From Candidatus Neomarinimicrobiota bacterium (GTDB lineage: Bacteria; Fidelibacterota; SORT01), in contig JADFGO010000006.1 of the NCBI GenBank assembly GCA_022567655.1, positions 1 to 45,331 on the forward strand: DNA of 45,331 nt, given 5' to 3'. A program made the translations under genes and the position numbers. Below, one piece after another: positions 15,664 through 28,434 of the stretch. Each line of letters opens with the position of its first letter. The first letter of the stretch is position 1. A model generated the notes under the pieces. It was not told the origin of the DNA. It was given only the letters and a program-made list of their open reading frames with translations, and made no database searches.

Positions 15664-15683
15664 TCTGTTTTCGGTTCAGATCA
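15661..15683. terminator. Short hairpin between convergent genes
   Basis: TGATCTG (15661-15667) pairs perfectly with CAGATCA (15677-15683) around a 9-nt loop. The left arm begins with the stop codon of the membrane-protein gene and the right arm ends with the stop codon of dinB, read on the other strand. No long T tract follows on either side, so it is at best a weak bidirectional terminator. Confidence 0.45.
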
Positions 15684-16745
15684 TCTTTCGGGAAATAAGT
15701 CGATCTGTAAATTTTCCGGCTCAAAATTAAACAGTTTCACGCCTATCAGGCGTATACTTCTTCCTTTTTTGAAGTTCGAATAAATCATCTGCTCGGTGAG
15801 ATTCTGAATTATTAGCGTATCGTTACTCGAACGGGCGAGAGTTTTTGTCCGTGTGATAGTATCGAAATTTTCGAATCTCATCTTGATCCCGATACTTCTT
15901 GCCGTCAAACCTTTCTCTTTCATGAGGCGACATATATCAGCACACATCCTTGACGCCGTTTCTGCCAATCGTTCTGGTTTTTGAACATCAACTCTAAATG
16001 TTCGTTCCTTGCTTATGGATTTTCTCCTGTGTTCCAACAAGAGTTTATCGCTCGCAATCCCTCTGGCTCTTTTATATAGACCTTCCCCGTGTATCCCGAA
16101 TCTACTGCGAAGTTCTTTTTCGCTTAAACCTCTTAATTCGGCTATTGATCTTATGCCCAAATTCTTTAACCGCTCGCGCGTCTTAGGACCAACGCCCGGT
16201 ATAACGCCAACGTCCATAGGGCGGAGAAATCCGGCTTCTTTTCCCGGAAGTATTTCTAAAATACCTTCCGGCTTTGCATGATCTGACGCTATCTTCGCCA
16301 TCATTCTGTTGGTTCCTATTCCGATCGATACCGACAACTTCAAGTCTCTTGAAATTCTTAGTTTGATTTCTTCTGCAACGTTTAACGCTTTGTTTCCATT
16401 CGCTTCTATAGAGTCTGTCAGATCCACATATCCCTCGTCGATGCTCGTCCGCTCCACGTGCGGAGAATATTCTTTCAATATGCTGAAGACACTGTTTGAA
16501 TATCGCGAATATTCACCGAACCTCCCGCTTATTCTGATCAAGTGTGGACATAATTTGAATGCTCTGAACATAGGCATCGCTGAGTGAATTCCATATTTCC
16601 TTGCTTCATATGATGCGGAGGCAACAACACCTCTTCCAGTCGGGCTTCCACCAACAACCACCGGTTTACCCTTAAGACTTGTATCTTTCGCCTGTTCGAC
16701 TGAAACGTAAAACTGATCGATGTCCATATGTGCTATTATCGCCAT
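15681..16745 (-). CDS. dinB: DNA polymerase IV (Y-family translesion polymerase)
   Basis: 354 residues, standard DinB length. Catalytic acidic residues are D8 (MDIDQFYVSVE) and D103-E104 (SIDEGYVDLT). A helix-hairpin-helix segment (VGPKTRERLKNLGI) and a little-finger domain follow. The C-terminus ends QIDLFPER, in which Q347-F351 (QIDLF) fits the beta-clamp binding motif. It performs error-prone bypass of damaged template. It starts 19 bp downstream of lexA on the same strand, so it is expected to be in the SOS-controlled lexA transcript. Confidence 0.96.
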   Translation of the reverse strand: MAIIAHMDIDQFYVSVEQAKDTSLKGKPVVVGGSPTGRGVVASASYEARKYGIHSAMPMFRAFKLCPHLIRISGRFGEYSRYSNSVFSILKEYSPHVERTSIDEGYVDLTDSIEANGNKALNVAEEIKLRISRDLKLSVSIGIGTNRMMAKIASDHAKPEGILEILPGKEAGFLRPMDVGVIPGVGPKTRERLKNLGIRSIAELRGLSEKELRSRFGIHGEGLYKRARGIASDKLLLEHRRKSISKERTFRVDVQKPERLAETASRMCADICRLMKEKGLTARSIGIKMRFENFDTITRTKTLARSSNDTLIIQNLTEQMIYSNFKKGRSIRLIGVKLFNFEPENLQIDLFPER

Positions 16746-16764
16746 GGCTGCCTTAACCGCCTTT

Positions 16765-17376
16765 CTATAGGTATTTTCGAAGGATGCCTATTACTACCCC
16801 CCTTATTTGTACGCTGTCGGCGGGCAGTATAAGCGGCAACATTTTTTCATTCGCCGGCTGCAGTCTTATTTTACCGTTCTCCGGATAGAATTTCTTTATA
16901 GTCGCCTCGTCTCCCCCTACAAGCGCGACTACCGTTTCGCCGCTTTCGGCATTGGATCGCTCTTCCACAATTACATAGTCACCGTCCCTTATCTGTTCAT
17001 CTATCATCGAATTACCCCTGACTTTCAAGACGTAGTGGCTTCCGAATCCTATCATATCTCCCGGTACGCTTATCTCCTCAGTGGGGTCTTCTATGGCGAC
17101 AATAGGCTCGCCAGCAGCGACAAGTCCAAGCAGCGGAAGATTTACAGCCTTGATTTCAGACGGTTCTGAAACGATCTCAATTGACCTGCTTCGATTCCAC
17201 TGTTTGGTAATCATCCCCTTTTCCACAAGATGCTTTAAATGTTTGTGCACCGTCCCCTTAGATCGATATCCGAGTCCGTCCGCTATCTCTTCGTAGCTCG
17301 GCGAGTATCCATTCAATTCCTGAAAGCTGCCGATGTAGTCCATGACACGCCGCTGTTTTTTTGTGAGTACCAACAT
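16765..17376 (-). CDS. lexA: LexA SOS repressor (S24 autopeptidase)
   Basis: 203 residues. An N-terminal winged helix-turn-helix (1-70; SPSYEEIADGLGYRSKGTVHKHLKHL) is followed by the S24 peptidase domain. The self-cleavage bond is A88-G89 (VAAGEP), the nucleophile S123 (RGNSMID) and the general base K161 (ATIKKF). RecA-ssDNA filaments would trigger cleavage and derepress the regulon, which includes dinB immediately downstream. ATG at 17376 has an AGGAGG ribosome binding site at 17379-17384, one of the few strong ones in the window. It is transcribed divergently from nothing: dnaA lies upstream on the same strand. Confidence 0.97.
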   Translation of the reverse strand: MLVLTKKQRRVMDYIGSFQELNGYSPSYEEIADGLGYRSKGTVHKHLKHLVEKGMITKQWNRSRSIEIVSEPSEIKAVNLPLLGLVAAGEPIVAIEDPTEEISVPGDMIGFGSHYVLKVRGNSMIDEQIRDGDYVIVEERSNAESGETVVALVGGDEATIKKFYPENGKIRLQPANEKMLPLILPADSVQIRGVVIGILRKYL

Positions 17377-19096: not shown

Positions 19097-19105
19097 TTAT
19101 CCACA
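19097..19105 (+). promoter_or_regulatory. DnaA box
   Basis: TTATCCACA, an exact match to the DnaA-box consensus, in an AT-rich context (followed by ATTTATTAACA). It may serve origin function or dnaA autoregulation. Confidence 0.65.
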
Positions 19106-19320: not shown

Positions 19321-19476
19321 ATGAAGAGAACGTATCAGCCAAGTAACCGTAAACGCCGCAATAAACATGGATTTCGCAAAAGAATGTCTTCTGCCGACGG
19401 AAGGGAAATTTTGAAAAGAAGAAGAGCCAAGGGGCGGAAGAGACTTACTGTATCCTCAGAAATAGCCAAGAAATGA
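19321..19476 (+). CDS. rpmH: Ribosomal protein bL34
   Basis: 51 residues, highly basic: [20 protein letters not shown] at the N-terminus and a Lys/Arg-rich tail ([14 protein letters not shown]). It is an unmistakable L34, slightly longer than the usual 44-46 residues at its C-terminus (SSEIAKK). It is a large-subunit ribosomal protein and opens the conserved rpmH-rnpA-yidD-yidC-mnmE-mnmG series. There is no Shine-Dalgarno sequence before the ATG. Confidence 0.97.
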
Positions 19477-19480
19477 CAAA

Positions 19481-19831
19481 TTGGACAGACGGCTTCCAAA
19501 AAAGGAGGTCCTTCGCGGAAGAAAAAAAATCAGTGATCTTTTCCGTTATGGTGATAAAATATCTTCCGGCACTCTGTGTGCCTACTGGAACCGATGTCAT
19601 TCAAGAAAAGTCGCATTTCACGTTTCCACAAAGGTGGGCAATTCAGTAACCAGAAATAAACTCAAACGCCGTTTAAGAGAAATCTATCGAAACAATAAAG
19701 CCTTATTCCCGGGTGATATCTGCATAATATTTTCAGCCCCGGAGCCCGTTGTCGAAAGTTCATACCATAGCCTCGAATTAACCATTAAAGATATAGCCGC
19801 ACGGATTTCGTCGAAATATGCTCAATCTTAA
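19481..19831 (+). CDS. rnpA: Ribonuclease P protein component
   Basis: 116 residues. The RNR motif is [13 protein letters not shown], with an upstream [15 protein letters not shown] segment that binds the P RNA and pre-tRNA leader. It is the protein cofactor of RNase P, which matures tRNA 5' ends. TTG at 19481 gives the family's expected N-terminus ([17 protein letters not shown]) and lies 4 bp after rpmH. It overlaps yidD by 14 bp. The RNase P RNA gene is not in this window. Confidence 0.95.
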
Positions 19832-20048
19832 ATCGATCCCTAAACACACCGTTCTCGGCCTGCTGAAGCTATATCGGTTGACAATTTCTCCGTTTTTAGG
19901 AGCAAATTGCAGATTTTATCCCTCCTGTTCACAATATTCGATCGAGGCGGTCGAGAAGTACGGCGCATTTAAAGGGGGGCTTCTTTCTCTCAAGAGGGTA
20001 TCTAAATGCCATCCGCTGCATTCCGGCGGAGTAGATATGGTACCATGA
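19818..20048 (+). CDS. yidD: Membrane protein insertion efficiency factor YidD
   Basis: 76 residues with the family motif: [31 protein letters not shown] and [14 protein letters not shown]. It is an inner-leaflet membrane-associated protein assisting YidC-dependent insertion. It starts within rnpA and its stop codon overlaps the start of yidC (ATGA), so translation is probably coupled along rnpA-yidD-yidC. Confidence 0.95.
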
Positions 20049-21802
20049 AAAAGACAGATAAAAATACAGTTTTAGCCATTCTTCTGATCGGGCTAATTCT
20101 TGTAATGACCCCTTCATATTTAAGATGGCTTAACCCGCCGCCGCCCGTATCTCCCGAAGCTGATAATCTCATTTTTGGCGTTGATTCCGTGCTCACGCCG
20201 AAATTTCGGTCGTTCGATTCCGATGCAGCGATTTACGACCCGGTCATTACAACCCTTCCGGAAGAAGCCGAACTGTTCGACACCGCCGAAGAAATGATTG
20301 TGTCCATAGAAACACCTCTTTATTCTGCCGGCTTGTCTTCAAGGGGGGGCGGAAGCATAATTAGCTGGGTGCTTAAAAATTATCAGGGACCCGATAAGAA
20401 TCCGGCAAAACTGTTATCTTCCTACAAAGGCGGCAACCTTGGTATTCGATTCGTCAACGTAAACCGGGATACCGTAGATCTGTCAAAGCTCAACTGGACC
20501 CCTTCTCCGGAAAATCAATCTTATATTTCCCTTGATTACGGCCAGTCGGCGGAAATTTCTTTTACTTTTCGTCTGCCGAACGGCTTCAGTATAAGGAAAT
20601 CGTTCAGGTTCAACGGTGACGGTTATGATTTTTCACTTGACGTGGACGCTTCTGCCTTAAGCGGCTCAACAATAAACAACAGATATACGCTTTCATGGGA
20701 TACGCCCCTGCTGTCTACAGAGAAGTATCTGGTCGATGAGATGCAGTATGCCCGTGCACTGGCATTGCTCGGTGATGACGTCGAAGAATTAGACGCCGTA
20801 GTCAACAAGGTCGAAAGGGAATACTACGATGGAAACGTTTCATGGGCTGCTACGCGAACCAAGTATTTTACCGCAGCTATTATTCCGGAAACGATGCCTG
20901 CAAACAGGGTTATGCTCAAGTCAACAGGAAAGAATACGCGGGATGAAGAGCTCTATAAATCCTTTGCGGTTTCGCTTGACATGCCTATAAGCGGACAATA
21001 CGCAATTGGCAGCGATAGATTTACCGTTTACATAGGACCTCTAAGTTACGATTTACTCAAAAGTTACGGATTTGAGCTTGAGAAGATGATGAACTTCGGA
21101 TGGGGCTTTATCAGACCGATAAGCAAGGCTGTCCTCTGGTCATTTACGAAGCTGCACGCTTTCATACCTAATTACGGCTTGGTAATTATCCTCTTTTCCG
21201 TTCTTGTTAAGATTCTGGTTTATCCGCTTACCCATAAAAGCTTTGTCTCCATGAAGAAGATGCAGGATTTGCAGCCTGTTATTGCCGAGCTTAAGGAGAA
21301 ATATAAGGACGATCAGCCTACAATGCAAAAGAAGCAGATGCAGCTTTTCAAAGAGAAGGGAGTAAACCCTCTCGGCGGATGTTTACCCATGTTGTTACAA
21401 ATGCCGCTGCTTTTCGCGCTTTTCACCGTGTTCCGCTCCACTATAGAGCTGCGCGGCGCCGCATTCGTTTGGTGGATAACAGACCTCTCTTCCCAGGACA
21501 CGCTATTCACTCTCCCGTTTGCTCTGCCGTTTTATGGAGCTAATGTTAATTTCTTGCCGATCTTTATGGGTTTTACGATGTACCTCCAGCAAAAATATTC
21601 CGGTCAGTCAACAATGAACCAACAGCAAAAATTTATGGGATATTTTATGCCGATCTTCTTGGTTCTCTTTTTTAATACATTTCCCTCCGGACTGAACTTA
21701 TATTATTCTCTATTTAATATTTTCAGCGTAATTCAGACCAAATATCTCTCCGACGGAATATTTGGCAAGAAAAAACAGGCAGAGGACAAAACGGACAATT
21801 AA
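20045..21802 (+). CDS. yidC: Membrane protein insertase YidC
   Basis: 585 residues from ATG at 20045, chosen because it gives a clean signal-anchor ([20 protein letters not shown]) and the ATGA overlap with yidD; an upstream ATG at 20006 would add 13 residues lying inside yidD. A large periplasmic P1 domain of Gram-negative type (about 60-340) precedes the conserved five-helix insertase core ([57 protein letters not shown]). It inserts membrane proteins with or without SecYEG. The C-terminus is basic (FGKKKQAED). Confidence 0.97.
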
Positions 21803-21821: not shown

Positions 21822-23201
21822 ATGCTAAACCGGCAGCTAAACGAAGACACAATCACAGCGCTCTCAACACCGCCGGGAATCGGTGGTATTGCTGTTGTCA
21901 GAATATCGGGTGAAAAATCATTACAAATAATCAATAAATTGCTGCCAAAGAGTAAGCATCTGTCCAGCAAATCTCACGGAATTGCCACGCCGGCTACTAT
22001 AATTGACGGAAAATCGCAAGAACCTATAGACGAGGTCATTGTTACCTATTTTAGGGGGCCGAATTCTTATACCACGGAAGATCTTGTGGAAATTAGCTGC
22101 CATGGAGGACTTTACGTACAGGGAATACTACTTGAGCTAATCACCGATCTTGGCGCCCGGGTAGCCCAGCCGGGAGAATTCACGAAGAGAGCTTTCCTCG
22201 GTGGAAGAATTGACCTATCGCAGGCGGAGGGTGTAGCCGACATTATCGCCGCCAAAGTAGAATCCGCCCATAAATCCTCTTTGCTACAAATCCAGGGAAA
22301 CATAAAGAGAAGCGTCAAGTCGCTGAGATCAAGGATTATTGAAATCGCTGCGCTGATAGAAGCGGAGCTGGATTTTTCCGAAGACGAAATAGAGCATACT
22401 CCGAATAAAAAATTAGCCGAAATGATCAAGGCGCTGCACACGGACGCGCTCGGACTGCTTCAAAATTACGGATACGGTAAGATTCTGAGAGAAGGCGCTC
22501 TTGTGCCTATTATCGGTAAGCCGAATGCGGGTAAATCCAGCCTTCTCAACGCCATCCTCAACAGTGATCGGGCTATAGTAACCCCTACGCCCGGTACCAC
22601 ACGAGATACCATCGAGGAAGAAGTTGAATTAGGGGGATATTTGATTCGCCTTGTAGATACCGCCGGACTGAGAGAGTCCGGAGACAACATCGAACAGATC
22701 GGAATCGATAAGTCCATTTCCCGGCTTGAATCGGCAGACCTGACAGTGTGGCTGCTTGACAGATCTACGCCGATTGAAAATGAAGACCTTGCCATATTCG
22801 AGAGACTCGAAGGGAAGAATTACATCACAATCGAGAGCAAGGTAGACCTTGAAAGGGATGCCTCCTTTTCACCACAAAAAAACGGGTTCAATATAGAGTG
22901 CTCGATTTCATCTTTAACCGGCGAGGGGATGGAAGCGCTCGGGGAAAAAATCGCAGAGCGTGTTGGTGAAATCAGCTCCGGGGAAGCCGCGATTATTACA
23001 AATGCCCGACACGCGAATGCGATCAAATTAGGGGCTGCATCACTTCAAATGGCGGTTGAGGCGGCAAAGGAAGGTCGGGGGGGAGAATATTTAGCCGTCG
23101 ACCTGAGAGAGGCAATGGACCACCTGGGAGAGCTCACCGGTGAAGTCACGACCGACGATATACTAAACGAAATATTCGGGAAATTCTGCATTGGAAAGTG
23201 A
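21822..23201 (+). CDS. mnmE: tRNA modification GTPase MnmE
   Basis: 459 residues. The N-terminal tetrahydrofolate-binding domain (about 1-120) is followed by a helical domain with an inserted G domain. G1 is at about 231-238 (GKPNAGKSS), G2 TTRDT, G3 DTAGLR and the G4-like motif is ESKVD in place of NKxD. The C-terminus is FGKFCIGK, the invariant C(I/L/V)GK. With MnmG it installs the cmnm5 group on wobble uridine of certain tRNAs. It lies 19 bp after yidC and 114 bp before its partner mnmG. Confidence 0.97.
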   Translation: MLNRQLNEDTITALSTPPGIGGIAVVRISGEKSLQIINKLLPKSKHLSSKSHGIATPATIIDGKSQEPIDEVIVTYFRGPNSYTTEDLVEISCHGGLYVQGILLELITDLGARVAQPGEFTKRAFLGGRIDLSQAEGVADIIAAKVESAHKSSLLQIQGNIKRSVKSLRSRIIEIAALIEAELDFSEDEIEHTPNKKLAEMIKALHTDALGLLQNYGYGKILREGALVPIIGKPNAGKSSLLNAILNSDRAIVTPTPGTTRDTIEEEVELGGYLIRLVDTAGLRESGDNIEQIGIDKSISRLESADLTVWLLDRSTPIENEDLAIFERLEGKNYITIESKVDLERDASFSPQKNGFNIECSISSLTGEGMEALGEKIAERVGEISSGEAAIITNARHANAIKLGAASLQMAVEAAKEGRGGEYLAVDLREAMDHLGELTGEVTTDDILNEIFGKFCIGK

Positions 23202-23204
23202 AAC

Positions 23205-23220
23205 TGTTTCACGTGAAACG
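23205..23220. promoter_or_regulatory. parS centromere site 1 (one mismatch)
   Basis: TGTTTCACGTGAAACG matches 15 of 16 positions of the parS consensus bound by chromosomal ParB. No parA or parB gene lies in the window. Confidence 0.88.
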
Positions 23221-23252
23221 GGTTTGGTTCAATTGATTTTTGTAAACATGGT

Positions 23253-23268
23253 TGTTTCACGTGAAACA
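23253..23268. promoter_or_regulatory. parS centromere site 2 (perfect)
   Basis: TGTTTCACGTGAAACA is the exact 16-bp parS sequence known from Bacillus and widely conserved. It lies about 48 bp from site 1 and about 4 kb from the dnaA-rpmH region, as expected for an origin-proximal centromere. Confidence 0.93.
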
Positions 23269-23302
23269 GTTTACGATATTTGGATTAACCGAACGATCAT
23301 CG

Positions 23303-23308
23303 TATAAT
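23303..23308 (+). promoter_or_regulatory. Consensus -10 box just before mnmG
   Basis: A perfect TATAAT ends 7 bp before the TTG start of mnmG, so a transcript begun here would be leaderless. The -35 region (TTGGAT at 23280) is poor. Confidence 0.35.
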
Positions 23309-23315
23309 TATCTCC

Positions 23316-25205
23316 TTGAAAGATACATTTGACATAATAGTCGTAGGCGCCGGACATGCCGGTGTTGAAGCCGCTCTTGCCGCCGCCCGCATGGGAAACA
23401 ATGTGGCGATTGTCACCATGGACACATCCGCCATCGGGCGCATGTCGTGTAATCCGGCCATCGGCGGTTTGGCAAAGGGGCATCTTGTGCGCGAGATCGA
23501 TGCGCTCGGCGGCGAGATGGGGCTTGCCGCTGATTCCACAGGCATACAATTTAAAATGCTGAACCGCTCAAAGGGGAGGGCGGTCTGGTCTCCGCGCTGC
23601 CAGAGTGATAAATATGCGTACTCCGCTTATATGGAAAATGTAGTGAAATCCGAGAAAAACATCACACTTATAGGCGACGCCGTATCAGAAATTATTACAT
23701 CAGGCGATAGGGTAACCGGGGTAAGCACAAAAACGCATGGCGCAATCTCGGCCAGTGCGGTAGTGCTCACATGCGGTACTTTCCTGAACGGATTAATGCA
23801 CACGGGTCTCAGCTCCAGAGATGGAGGAAGGGTGGGAGAAAAAACAGCTAAGGGTCTCACGGAAAATCTCAAGTCTTATGGGTTTCAATCAGGAAGATTA
23901 AAAACGGGTACGCCGCCGAGATTAAAAAAAGCTACGATCGATTTTGATAGCACCCAAATTCAATACGGCGATGATCATCCGACCCCCTTTTCGTTTCGTA
24001 CGCTGAATTTTAATCCCAAGAATGAACCCGCCTATATAACTCATACAAATGAAAAAACGCATCGAGTCATAGAATCGGGGCTCGATCAATCCCCGATGTA
24101 CACCGGAGCGATCGAGGGGATCGGACCGAGATATTGTCCGTCGATTGAAGACAAGGTGGTGCGCTTCTCGGACAGGCCGTCTCACCAGCTCTTCCTCGAA
24201 CCGGAGGGGCTTGATAGTGATGAGATATACGTCAACGGCTTCTCGACGAGCTTACCGGAAGAAATTCAGCTAAGGGCTATCAGAACCGTGCCGGGTTTGC
24301 ACCGGGTTGAATTTACCAGAGCGGGGTATGCGGTCGAATATGATTTTTTCCCTCCCCACCAGCTCTACCACAGCCTCGAGACAAAGCTGATTGAAAATCT
24401 TTTCTTTGCCGGTCAAATAAACGGAACAAGCGGTTACGAAGAAGCCGCCGCCCAGGGTTTTGTTGCTGGAGTGAATGCCGCATTAAAAATAAATGGCGAA
24501 AAGCCGTTCGTGACAGACAGGGCGGAGAGCTACATCGGTGTACTGATAGACGACCTTGTGTCCAAGGGTACGCTCGAACCTTATCGGATGTTTACTTCAC
24601 GCGCAGAATACCGTATTCTTCTCCGGCAAGATAACGCTGATATTCGGTTATCCGAGAAAGGATACGAGCTCGGATTGATTCCTGAAAAAATTCATAATCG
24701 CGCAATGGAAAAAAAGGCTTTAATTCGTGAGGCTATATCCTTGCTAAGCAAGAGCTCCGTCTCCGCTGCGGAGATAAATGATTACCTGTCCGCTTTTATA
24801 CTAAAGCCGGCGGTGAATTCGTCCACGCTCATACGCATTATCCGGCGGCCCGAACTTCGACTGCTTGACATGATGCCGATCATCGAAAATAAGCTTCCCG
24901 GGCTCGCAGAAAAAATTAGGCTGGACGAAGAATCCGGCGAACAAATCGAACTTGAAATTAAGTACGAAGGATATTTGAAAAGACAAGAGGAACAGGTTGA
25001 ACGCTTCCGCAAGATGGAACATAAAAGTATTCCGCCCGGCTTTGACTACGGAATTATTCGTTCGCTCTCATCGGAGGGAAGAGAAAAGCTAGCTTCTATG
25101 AAACCTGAATCGCTCGGGCAGGCATCCCGCATTTCCGGTGTTAGGCCATCTGACATCTCTCTCGTTGCCGTGGCGCTAAAAGCCTTTAGCGCTAACAGCG
25201 GATAA
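23316..25205 (+). CDS. mnmG: tRNA uridine-5-carboxymethylaminomethyl modification enzyme MnmG (GidA)
   Basis: 629 residues, standard length. The FAD-binding Rossmann motif is at 11-16 (GAGHAG), with the family signatures GRMSCNPAIGGLAKGHLVRE and GTSGYEEAAAQG (FAD-binding), and a C-terminal helical domain (PGFDYGIIRSLSSEGREKL) that binds MnmE. With MnmE it forms cmnm5U34 in tRNA. TTG at 23316 is the only good start before the FAD motif and has no Shine-Dalgarno sequence; two parS sites lie just upstream. mfd follows after 7 bp. Confidence 0.97.
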   Translation: MKDTFDIIVVGAGHAGVEAALAAARMGNNVAIVTMDTSAIGRMSCNPAIGGLAKGHLVREIDALGGEMGLAADSTGIQFKMLNRSKGRAVWSPRCQSDKYAYSAYMENVVKSEKNITLIGDAVSEIITSGDRVTGVSTKTHGAISASAVVLTCGTFLNGLMHTGLSSRDGGRVGEKTAKGLTENLKSYGFQSGRLKTGTPPRLKKATIDFDSTQIQYGDDHPTPFSFRTLNFNPKNEPAYITHTNEKTHRVIESGLDQSPMYTGAIEGIGPRYCPSIEDKVVRFSDRPSHQLFLEPEGLDSDEIYVNGFSTSLPEEIQLRAIRTVPGLHRVEFTRAGYAVEYDFFPPHQLYHSLETKLIENLFFAGQINGTSGYEEAAAQGFVAGVNAALKINGEKPFVTDRAESYIGVLIDDLVSKGTLEPYRMFTSRAEYRILLRQDNADIRLSEKGYELGLIPEKIHNRAMEKKALIREAISLLSKSSVSAAEINDYLSAFILKPAVNSSTLIRIIRRPELRLLDMMPIIENKLPGLAEKIRLDEESGEQIELEIKYEGYLKRQEEQVERFRKMEHKSIPPGFDYGIIRSLSSEGREKLASMKPESLGQASRISGVRPSDISLVAVALKAFSANSG

Positions 25206-25212
25206 TCAAATC

Positions 25213-28200
25213 TTGGCTCCGGTATTTGAAGGGATAAATTTCATTGAAGAGCTGATCGGGAAGGACGAAGCATCGAAGTCCTTTGCCGAAAAAGCTGCGC
25301 TTGGGGGGCGATATAAAGTCTCCGGACTCTCCGGCTCCCTCACGGCGTTCCTCGCAAAATCTACATTCAAGTCCACGGGGCGAAGCCTATTAATTGCGGC
25401 CGAATCACTAAAAAGGGCGGAGGCGTATCGAGACGACTTAGAAACATTATTGGGCAAAGAGTTCGTTTATTTTTTCCCCGAGTCCGGCAAATCAATAGGA
25501 CAAGAATCGATCACTATACAAGCCTTTCAATCCCATGCGCTGCAGGGACTGCTCGGAGGCGATCACGCACTTATTATTTCTACGTTCCGCGGGTTGTTAG
25601 AGATGGTCCCGCCATTAGGAGATCTTATTAAAAACCGGATTCAGCTGAACGCAGGAGATGAAATCGAGATTGAAACCCTTATCTCCCGGTTGACTAATAT
25701 CGGATATGAACGGGAAAAAATGGTATCACGCCCATTTGAGTTCAGCGTTCGCGGCGGCATTCTGGATATTTTTCCCATATCTTCCGAATATCCCGTGAGG
25801 ATAGATTTTTTTGACGACACAATAGATTCGATTAGAGAATTTGATATTATCACGCAGAGGTCGCATAAACACATTATAAACAGTATGATAAGCCCTGATT
25901 TTCTTGTCGAAAATCTATGGCAGGGAGCGAGCCAGAGCCTTGTTTCGGTAATTCCGCCAGACACCATGATTTGGATAGACGGCTATGACAGGCTTGCACA
26001 AATTGCCGACGATGATCCGAACATCGACCTCGAAGAAATTAAAAACAAGATTGATGGGAGCGATGGAGCAGACATCCTCTCCGTCTCGTCGCCGGGATCG
26101 ATACGGTTTAACTCTTCACCCCAAACAAGATATCGCAGCTCGATGAGCGCTTTATCCAAGGACTTACATAAGTGGGAAACCGATAAGGATTTCGTTTTCA
26201 TTTTATGCGAGAACGATTTTCATCAGGAGCGCCTCAGCAAGACACTCGATAACGACGGGACAGCTATCGAAACCGCACCGCTCTCTGCCGGGTTCAACCT
26301 TCCGTCTGTGAATTTACGCGTTCTAACCGACCACGAGATTTTTGATCGCACCAGGAAGAGGCGCTCTTTCAACCGATTTATATCCCATGGAACTCCGGTC
26401 CGGGATTCTGCCGGAATCCAAATAGGTGATTTTCTCGTTCACATTGATCACGGAATCGGAGAGTACCGGGGTATGGAAAAAATAAAAATCTCCGGCGCAA
26501 TGAGAGAATGCCTGAAGATTTTATATGCGGGCGGAGATAAGATATATCTTCCGGTAGAAAACTTTCGCCGTATCCAAAAATACAAAGCCGCTGAGGGTAT
26601 CGTTCCCAAGTTAAACAAGCTCGGAAGCAATGAATGGGAAAAGATAAAAAAACGAACCCGCTCTTCCACCGATAAGATAGCCCGGGACCTTGTAGAGCTT
26701 TATGCCAAAAGGCTTAGCTCAAAAGGGTTTTCATTCGCCCCGGACATCGATATGCAGTGGGCTTTGGAGGCTAGCTTCCCGTTCGAGGAAACGCCCGATC
26801 AGCTCCGTGCTGTCGAAGAGGTCAAGGCTGACATGGAAAAGGAGCATCCTATGGACCGGCTGCTTTGCGGTGATGTGGGGTTCGGCAAAACAGAAGTGGC
26901 ATTACGCGCAGCATTTAAATGCGTCCTGAGCGGAAAGCAAACCTCCCTGCTTGTGCCTACTACTATTTTAGCCGAGCAGCATTACCGGACATTCAGGGAG
27001 AGATTAGAGCCTTTTCCGGTTATTGTCGAATCCCTGAGCAGGTTCAAAAGCAAGAAAGAGCAGAGTGAAATATTAAAGCAACTTGAATCCGGAAAAGTAG
27101 ATATTCTAATCGGCACTCACCGAATTTTATCCGCCGACGTTAAATTCAAGGACTTAGGATTGCTTATTATAGACGAAGAGCACCGTTTCGGCGTCCGCCA
27201 GAAGGAATCATTAAAAAATCTGAGAATCTCTGTCGATACCCTGTCTATGACGGCAACCCCAATCCCGAGAACTCTCAACTTTTCCTTGCTCGGAGCCCGT
27301 GACCTGTCAAATATAAATACGGCACCCAAAAACCGGCTTCCGATTTACACGGAAATCACCACCTTAGACGAAGGTGTTGTCCGCGATGCCGTGATGAGAG
27401 AGGTTGAAAGAAACGGACAGATCTATTTCGTTCATAACGAAATCAAGTCTATCAATCGGATTTATGAGAAGCTCAGGCGCTGGGTGCCGCATGTCAGAAT
27501 CTGCATAGCTCACGGTCAGATGAAGCCCAAAGAGCTCGAAAGCATAATGTCTGATTTCATGGGGCGGAAATATGAACTTTTGTTGAGCACGATGATAATT
27601 GAAAGCGGACTCGACATACCCAATGTCAACACCATTTTAATCAACCGGGCTGACAGGTTTGGACTTTCGCAGCTATATCAGCTTCGTGGAAGAGTCGGCA
27701 GGTCGGATAAACGGGCGTTCGCATACTTGCTCATCCCACCGATCCATAAGTTGGGCAGCAATGCAATAAGTCGATTAAACACGCTTGAAAATTTTTCCCA
27801 TCTCGGGGCAGGATTCAGCATAGCGATGCAAGACCTCGAAATTCGGGGCGCCGGAAACTTATTGGGCACACAGCAAAGCGGCTTCATGGAAGCCGTCGGA
27901 TTCGATATGTATAACCGGCTTGTCGCCGAAGCCGTGGATAAAATTAAGGAAGAGTTCGGAATAAAGCAATCATCCGTGCAAAGCGTGGAAACGGAAATAT
28001 CTTGTGATCTCGATGCTTATTTACCGGACTCGTACATCTTGGACGGTGAGGTTCGTGTGGATTTTTATAAACGATTAGCCTCGCTTACTGAAATGTCTGA
28101 ACTCGAGGATATCAGGGAAGAATTATCCGATAGATACGGATCGATTCCGCAGGAGGCTAAAAACCTGCTCGACATAACCGAGATAAAAATCATATCGTCT

Positions 28201-28434
28201 AAATTAAGGATAAGGTCTCTCAAAATTAAGCGCTCGGAGATCAGCGGCTTACTCGGAGATTATGAAGAAGTCTCGCCTGAGGACATTTTTTTCAAATCTC
28301 TGTCAACAAGCGATGGTTTGGATAAATATGATTTAACTATTGATTCTGCAAACGGGGTGAGTTTCAGGGCAAAGCTTTCCGATAAAAACAAACTCAAATC
28401 AGCGAAAACCCTGTTGAATTCATTATCGCCATAA
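25213..28434 (+). CDS. mfd: Transcription-repair coupling factor Mfd
   Basis: 1073 residues. An N-terminal UvrB-homology module (about 1-330) leads to the RNA polymerase-interacting domain (LVHIDHGIGEYRGMEKI near 410) and the superfamily 2 translocase with Walker A near 553 (GDVGFGKTE), DEEH near 653, and SMTATPIPRT. The TRG motif region (RGAGNLLGTQQSG) and a C-terminal D7 domain follow. It displaces RNA polymerase stalled at lesions and recruits UvrA. Start TTG at 25213 with no ribosome binding site; it is likely in the mnmG transcript. Confidence 0.97.
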   Translation: MAPVFEGINFIEELIGKDEASKSFAEKAALGGRYKVSGLSGSLTAFLAKSTFKSTGRSLLIAAESLKRAEAYRDDLETLLGKEFVYFFPESGKSIGQESITIQAFQSHALQGLLGGDHALIISTFRGLLEMVPPLGDLIKNRIQLNAGDEIEIETLISRLTNIGYEREKMVSRPFEFSVRGGILDIFPISSEYPVRIDFFDDTIDSIREFDIITQRSHKHIINSMISPDFLVENLWQGASQSLVSVIPPDTMIWIDGYDRLAQIADDDPNIDLEEIKNKIDGSDGADILSVSSPGSIRFNSSPQTRYRSSMSALSKDLHKWETDKDFVFILCENDFHQERLSKTLDNDGTAIETAPLSAGFNLPSVNLRVLTDHEIFDRTRKRRSFNRFISHGTPVRDSAGIQIGDFLVHIDHGIGEYRGMEKIKISGAMRECLKILYAGGDKIYLPVENFRRIQKYKAAEGIVPKLNKLGSNEWEKIKKRTRSSTDKIARDLVELYAKRLSSKGFSFAPDIDMQWALEASFPFEETPDQLRAVEEVKADMEKEHPMDRLLCGDVGFGKTEVALRAAFKCVLSGKQTSLLVPTTILAEQHYRTFRERLEPFPVIVESLSRFKSKKEQSEILKQLESGKVDILIGTHRILSADVKFKDLGLLIIDEEHRFGVRQKESLKNLRISVDTLSMTATPIPRTLNFSLLGARDLSNINTAPKNRLPIYTEITTLDEGVVRDAVMREVERNGQIYFVHNEIKSINRIYEKLRRWVPHVRICIAHGQMKPKELESIMSDFMGRKYELLLSTMIIESGLDIPNVNTILINRADRFGLSQLYQLRGRVGRSDKRAFAYLLIPPIHKLGSNAISRLNTLENFSHLGAGFSIAMQDLEIRGAGNLLGTQQSGFMEAVGFDMYNRLVAEAVDKIKEEFGIKQSSVQSVETEISCDLDAYLPDSYILDGEVRVDFYKRLASLTEMSELEDIREELSDRYGSIPQEAKNLLDITEIKIISSKLRIRSLKIKRSEISGLLGDYEEVSPEDIFFKSLSTSDGLDKYDLTIDSANGVSFRAKLSDKNKLKSAKTLLNSLSP

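Follow-up and report, generated by a model that had tools for sequence, protein, structure and literature searches.

The window (the entire 45,331-nt stretch of DNA that was analysed) carries dnaA, rpmH, rnpA, yidC, mnmE, mnmG and mfd in this order, with two sites resembling the parS sequence bound by ParB lying in the 114-bp gap between mnmE and mnmG (Table 1). Past mfd follow three peptidyl-prolyl isomerase/SurA-like genes, dnaN, recF and gyrase-like genes. The dnaA gene marks the origin region, and the gap between dnaA and rpmH, which holds a perfect DnaA box ~4.1 kb from the parS sites, is a candidate oriC. With dnaA and the DnaA box 4–5 kb from the pair and the GC-skew minimum nearby, at ~20–22 kb in the window, the sequence supports an origin-proximal position of the pair, in line with the place near the origin that an earlier, sequence-only reading of this DNA had associated with parS. 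Translation alone further points to two minus-strand genes adjoining dnaA (15681–17376), one for a LexA-like repressor and one for a DinB-like DNA polymerase, which would place an SOS pair beside the origin.

Table 1. Features of the parS locus and of the parAB genes; positions are those of the window unless a contig (L034) is named.
Feature	Position	Strand	Remarks
dnaA	17505–18866	-	marks origin region; TIGR00362, 509 bits
DnaA box	19097–19105	+	TTATCCACA, perfect match
rpmH (ribosomal protein L34)	19321–19476	+	by translation
rnpA	19481–19831		
yidC	20006–21802		
mnmE (tRNA modification GTPase)	21822–23201	+	NF003661, 422 bits against a cut-off of 380
Left arm of 19-bp inverted repeat	23201–23219	+	AAACTGTTTCACGTGAAAC; base 1 is the final base of the mnmE stop codon; outer flank varies
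parS site 1 (left)	23205–23220		TGTTTCACGTGAAACG; differs at one position from the 16-bp consensus; its 14-bp core is unaltered and shared by G001 and G002
parS site 2 (right)	23253–23268		TGTTTCACGTGAAACA; exact consensus; invariant in all four aligned family members
Right arm of 19-bp inverted repeat	23254–23272	-	outer flank varies among relatives
Probable sigma-70-type mnmG promoter	23280–23308	+	TTGGAT (23280–23285), 17-nt spacer, TATAAT (23303–23308)
mnmG (gidA)	23316–25205	+	TTG start; TIGR00136, 825 bits
mfd	25213–28434	+	begins 7 bp past mnmG
parB ORF	L034:6690–7556	-	contig other than the parS contig
ParA ORF	L034:7546–8310		directly upstream of parB, overlapping the parB start

The sequence-only reading had described a pair of parS sites between mnmE and mnmG, one exact and one with a single mismatch, 48 bp apart and forming a perfect 19-bp inverted repeat. 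Its coordinates were verified: the centre-to-centre distance is 48 bp, both sites fall within 64 bp, and the 19-bp arms are exact reverse complements of each other, the left arm being overlapped by the TGA of mnmE. Only 0.09 parS matches with up to three mismatches were expected by chance in the window, and 0 of 100 shuffles equalled the observed count. When the complete assembly (2.14 Mb in 150 contigs, 96.6% complete, so that sites in missing sequence are possible) was scanned with up to two mismatches, as had been proposed, these two proved to be the only parS sites, both near the origin and with no scatter elsewhere, and a reversed-pattern control scan at the same threshold yielded 0 matches.

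The matching flanks of the two sites had in turn been taken as extending the symmetry and as a sign of selection beyond the core or of duplication by inversion. The arms are indeed exact, but their flanks add little: the 14-bp parS core is its own reverse complement, so that two parS sites, wherever they lie, necessarily form an inverted as well as a direct repeat, and the symmetry beyond the core comprises AAACT/AGTTT only, one base of which belongs to the parS consensus. Because two relatives from sister genera (G001 and G002) keep both cores at 47–48 bp but not the AAAC/GTTT flanks, the extended mirror symmetry of the arms is best read as chance. Selection on the ACTG/CAGT flanks was rejected on the same grounds, since these flanks differ in G001 and G002 despite the kept cores and spacing. 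Duplication by inversion likewise found no support, given that the flanks differ in sister genera and that a palindromic core by itself produces mirror symmetry.

A search of the genome for parA and parB revealed that a ParA and a parS-type ParB are both encoded, on a different contig and with no parAB genes seen adjoining the parS sites. A single ParB_N protein is present (ParB_N E 2.8e-28), while the ParA-type profile matches to the ParA ORF each stayed under their curated cut-off. The ParB protein matches solved ParB–parS and Spo0J structures (best E 3e-51), with its N-terminal and DNA-binding parts aligning with H. pylori ParB (4umk), Spo0J (1vz0, 6sdk) and Caulobacter ParB (6t1f). It carries the GERRLRA CTP-binding motif and a GKxR...GHAR helix-turn-helix pattern, the latter supplying R173 and G201 (Caulobacter numbering), two residues that are reported to be invariant among ParB orthologs and to be replaced by Q and R in Noc (PMC7383237). 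TIGR04285 (noc) was the top NCBIfam match of this ParB, yet under its cut-off (223 vs 315 bits). Noc shares a related protein fold with this ParB, but the site here is parS with its CACGTG centre, and the protein has R/G rather than Q/R at positions 173/201. Membership of the Noc–NBS system was rejected, as the site is not of the ATTTCCCGGGAAAT type and the Noc residues QKKR are absent from ParB. An SMC gene is present as two overlapping pieces on two contigs (L393, G000:C24 and L394, G000:C39), probably reflecting an assembly break.

Exact-core sites number one or two in most near-complete genomes of the same phylum, two being commonest, and several genomes lacking the TTTC form carry the variant GTTCCACGTGGAAC. 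This phylum is probably Ca. Neomarinimicrobiota, since L091, which bears that label, groups with its genomes close to the own family. Regions were read in 34 genomes of the phylum, own genome included, and parS lay within the mnmE–mnmG–mfd block in all 34. The commonest arrangement (19/34) has one site in the mnmE–mnmG gap and one just past mnmG, ~1.9 kb apart. Three genomes, all of the own family, have both sites in the mnmE–mnmG gap (spacing 47, 48 and 48 bp), five (genus g17) have both before mfd at 98–115 bp, and seven have one site, located at one of the flanking positions in six of them and single in the other. In our genome the mnmG–mfd gap of 7 bp leaves no room for the downstream parS found there in most families. 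In genus g17 (L040–L043, L055) a ~4.6-kb stretch separates mnmG from the parS pair before mfd, and the second parS of L042 follows an ATG and can be translated in its frame (VSRET); it may lie within the start of mfd.

As had been proposed, the mnmE–mnmG gap was compared among relatives. Alignment of the four family members (own, G001, G002 and G004) showed that the right core is invariant and that both cores occur in three genomes, G001 and G002 having them 47–48 bp apart. Most of the gap varies, and pairs at 47–48 bp thus persist across three genera despite otherwise dissimilar gaps. In G004, a single parS has the outer flank of the left site fused to that of the right site (L051:2600–2790 compared with L050 of G002), as would be expected from a deletion between two copies, and no second parS was found in its mnmG–mfd region. 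We propose that the place beside mnmG was inherited and that in the own family the second copy lies next to the first and not past mnmG. The sequence-only reading had called the position striking, which holds for the presence of both sites in one gap, special to this family, but less so for the place itself, mnmG being a widely shared location of parS.

One or more sites upstream of mnmG were present in 68 of 80 named loci, which came from Ignavibacteria, Kryptonia, KSB1, Calditrichota, Neomarinimicrobiota and others. Ten of the 80 have no parS at mnmG, all ten without mnmE beside mnmG, and several of these genomes hold a parS pair elsewhere, which lies after yidC where the locus was read. A position-blind search of whole genomes for two facing parS half-sites 20–80 bp apart, at any place, detected pairs in the Ignavibacteria-like class (61 of 391 genomes), the own phylum (4 of 245), another small phylum (6 of 9) and a Bacteroidota-wide sample (93 of 396). 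Where such loci were read, the pair was at mnmG in 47 of 58 Ignavibacteria-like cases and after yidC in 8, between mnmE and mnmG in 6/6 of the small phylum, and beside mnmG in 29/30 of the Bacteroidota-wide sample (the counts for the class and for Bacteroidota cover genomes with close pairs). Judged by these sequences, a centromere at mnmG is a widely shared feature of these phyla, and the mnmG locus would have hosted the centromere over a broad range of phyla, its format varying between one flanking pair and nine-site arrays. A strict anchoring to mnmG was rejected, given that some Ignavibacteria-like pairs follow yidC without mnmG and that Bacteroidota pairs occur at mnmG without a nearby mnmE match.

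Two further architectures were observed in these samples. In the Bacteroidota loci (L401–L430), mnmG is accompanied by an array of 2 to 9 parS sites, and no match to mnmE was found within 1.5 kb. In a subset of the Ignavibacteria-like loci (L177, L178, L201–L206), pairs at 43–47 bp just past yidC enclose a G+C-rich hairpin and a T-run, resulting in a parS–terminator–parS order.

The spacings of the Ignavibacteria-like pairs cluster at ~26–28, 34–38, 43–51, 55–61 bp and so on, with none at 29–33 or 39–42 bp. At a period of 10.5 bp the discovery set (n=27) gave a Rayleigh R of 0.73, and further genomes (n=42) gave one of 0.34 (p ~0.009) at almost the same phase. Grouping all pairs of the Ignavibacteria-like set and the own family at 75% nucleotide identity yielded 63 clusters with R=0.46, for which 10.5 bp was the best period over 6–20 bp. 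The phase of ~4.6–4.9 of 10.5 is near a half turn, and the 48-bp spacing of our pair fits it. None of 5000 Brownian simulations on the MnmG tree reached the observed R, jitter nulls also fell short of it, and a control distance, that between mnmG and the second parS, gave R=0.03. Some relatives moreover differ by approximately whole turns (47/37, 46/36, 58/78 and 76/46), and the small further phylum (34, 37, 47, 47, 49 and 59 bp) gave R 0.69, with n=6 and two of these having been part of the discovery set. Contrasts on the tree gave no more than a hint (z 1.6 for differences of at least 4 bp), and the Bacteroidota arrays gave a non-significant R=0.14 at the same phase. Among the matches listed for viral contigs, periodicity is weak and the phase is 2.8, vs ~4.7 in the chromosomal set. 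Close parS pairs occur in many of these viral contigs (L212–L392), and 23–24 bp is the spacing seen most often among the matches listed, unlike that of chromosomal pairs.

With weak tree contrasts, a non-significant Bacteroidota signal and a differing viral phase, half-turn spacing is not established as a general parS rule, and for close pairs we regard it as a tentative lead drawn from these spacings. Half-integral spacing would set neighbouring ParB dimers on opposite faces of the helix, although this step is among the weaker ones. If true, it would constitute a direct in vivo constraint on ParB–parS geometry. A wider proposal makes close pairs a distinct centromere format, spaced at half-integral turns (~26, 36.5, 47 and 57.5 bp) so that dimers on opposite faces either avoid a clash or cooperate, and tied to mnmG across many phyla in order to couple segregation with mnmG transcription; this we consider rather doubtful. 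A literature search returned no paper tying parS to helical phasing or linking it to the position of mnmG in these phyla; the 2007 parS survey (Livny et al.) was outside its coverage, making an earlier description possible.

The two palindromes are, in our assessment, very probably the parS centromere of the chromosome, loaded by the ParA/ParB system encoded elsewhere in the genome. The sites, their uniqueness in the assembly, the genes for ParA, ParB and SMC, the proximity of the origin and the conservation of core and position were all seen directly. By analogy with known ParABS biology, ParB dimers would bind and load at both sites, close in a CTP-dependent manner to form sliding clamps, and spread along the mnmE–mnmG region ~4 kb from oriC, where they would engage ParA for partition and recruit SMC. 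The detectable centromere in this assembly is one 64-bp element, and the two sites are almost certainly the whole centromere of this bacterium, as far as its sequence tells. Against this reading, the G004 member of the same family retains one site, so that the pair would be dispensable unless the G004 assembly is faulty. This might in turn indicate that the centromere is real and the close pair a chance product of local duplication, with the number of sites and their spacing having no functional meaning. Such an explanation would agree with the single site of G004, with the sufficiency of one parS near oriC in studied species (PMC7022226), and with a helical phase that was not cleanly replicated in Bacteroidota (R 0.14) or, among the matches listed, in viral contigs (2.8 vs ~4.7). 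It is nonetheless rather improbable, because genomes of the phylum usually have two sites, because pairs at 47–48 bp were retained in three genera with otherwise unlike gaps, and because the 29–33 and 39–42 bp spacings are empty in the Ignavibacteria-like set.

Alternatively, the sites might mainly be an operator through which ParB would repress or adjust the mnmG promoter and so link tRNA modification with segregation, the centromere role being secondary. The probable promoter begins its –35 element 11 bp past the right parS and ends its –10 element 7 bp before the TTG codon, from which the mnmG mRNA seems to be leaderless or near-leaderless, starting at about this codon. Its –35 matches 3 of 6 positions and it falls under the cut-off of a consensus scan, but a TTG-N17-TAtaaT spacing is also readable between the right parS and mnmG in G001, G002 and G004, and its retention directly past the right parS in four family members speaks for an operator. 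So does the persistence of sites upstream of mnmG across Bacteroidota-like phyla, and there is a precedent in P. aeruginosa, where ParB bound near promoters can lower expression (PMC5521831). An influence of ParB on mnmG expression, which the sequence-only reading had suggested by way of ParB spreading, is plausible. As the main role, however, it is very unlikely: where the mnmE–mnmG block is split, 8 loci have parS pairs after yidC without mnmG, indicating that sites can stay with the yidC locus and not with the mnmG gene, and the ten mnmG loci lacking mnmE carry no site. Moreover, loss of parB alters few parS-adjacent genes in most studied bacteria, effects on neighbours usually being small (PMC7022226). 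Less likely still, to the point of being hardly credible, is that the inverted repeat acts mainly as a structure, either a 19-bp stem-loop terminating or attenuating mnmE–mnmG transcription or a cruciform. The RNA fold of –33.5 kcal/mol (z –5.5 vs shuffles) and the DNA fold (z –5.6) would favour it, and an intrinsic-terminator scan listed the left site alone as a terminator-like hairpin. However, any pair of palindromes folds in this way, so that the fold scores show only palindromes folding, and the tail GTTTGGTTCA is a poor U-run without a proper U-tract. Furthermore, most families have their sites 1.9 kb apart flanking mnmG, making a long stem impossible, and it is the ParB consensus that is conserved, with a variant in some relatives, instead of compensatory stem changes. 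A terminator or cruciform as the main role was set aside as unlikely in view of these fold controls and the flanking architecture in relatives.

As a parS centromere, the element is ordinary in kind, while its form is unusually compact and its place conserved over several phyla. With canonical ParABS systems (B. subtilis Spo0J, C. crescentus ParB) it shares the 16-bp palindrome, the ParA–ParB gene pair, parS-type ParB residues, origin-proximal clustering and SMC. It differs from these in that the assembly contains no more than two sites, placed 48 bp from each other in a single gap. In B. subtilis, ParB occupies ~10 sites, with ~5–39 kb between the four strongest, and the five strongest parS sites of Caulobacter lie inside 5 kb (PMC5815017; PMC7022226). 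An uncultured phylum would hereby gain a defined minimal centromere of two sites in 64 bp, none else being detected, and the natural variation among its relatives offers a test set for the number of parS sites needed, the distance permitted between them and the role of helical phase in ParB clamp loading. Some plasmid centromeres, such as F sopC and iteron arrays, also consist of spaced repeats and resemble the present element in having several binding sites at regular spacing on a short stretch. They differ from it in that the pairs here are chromosomal parS sites, among which a preference for half-turn spacing appears in some clades only.
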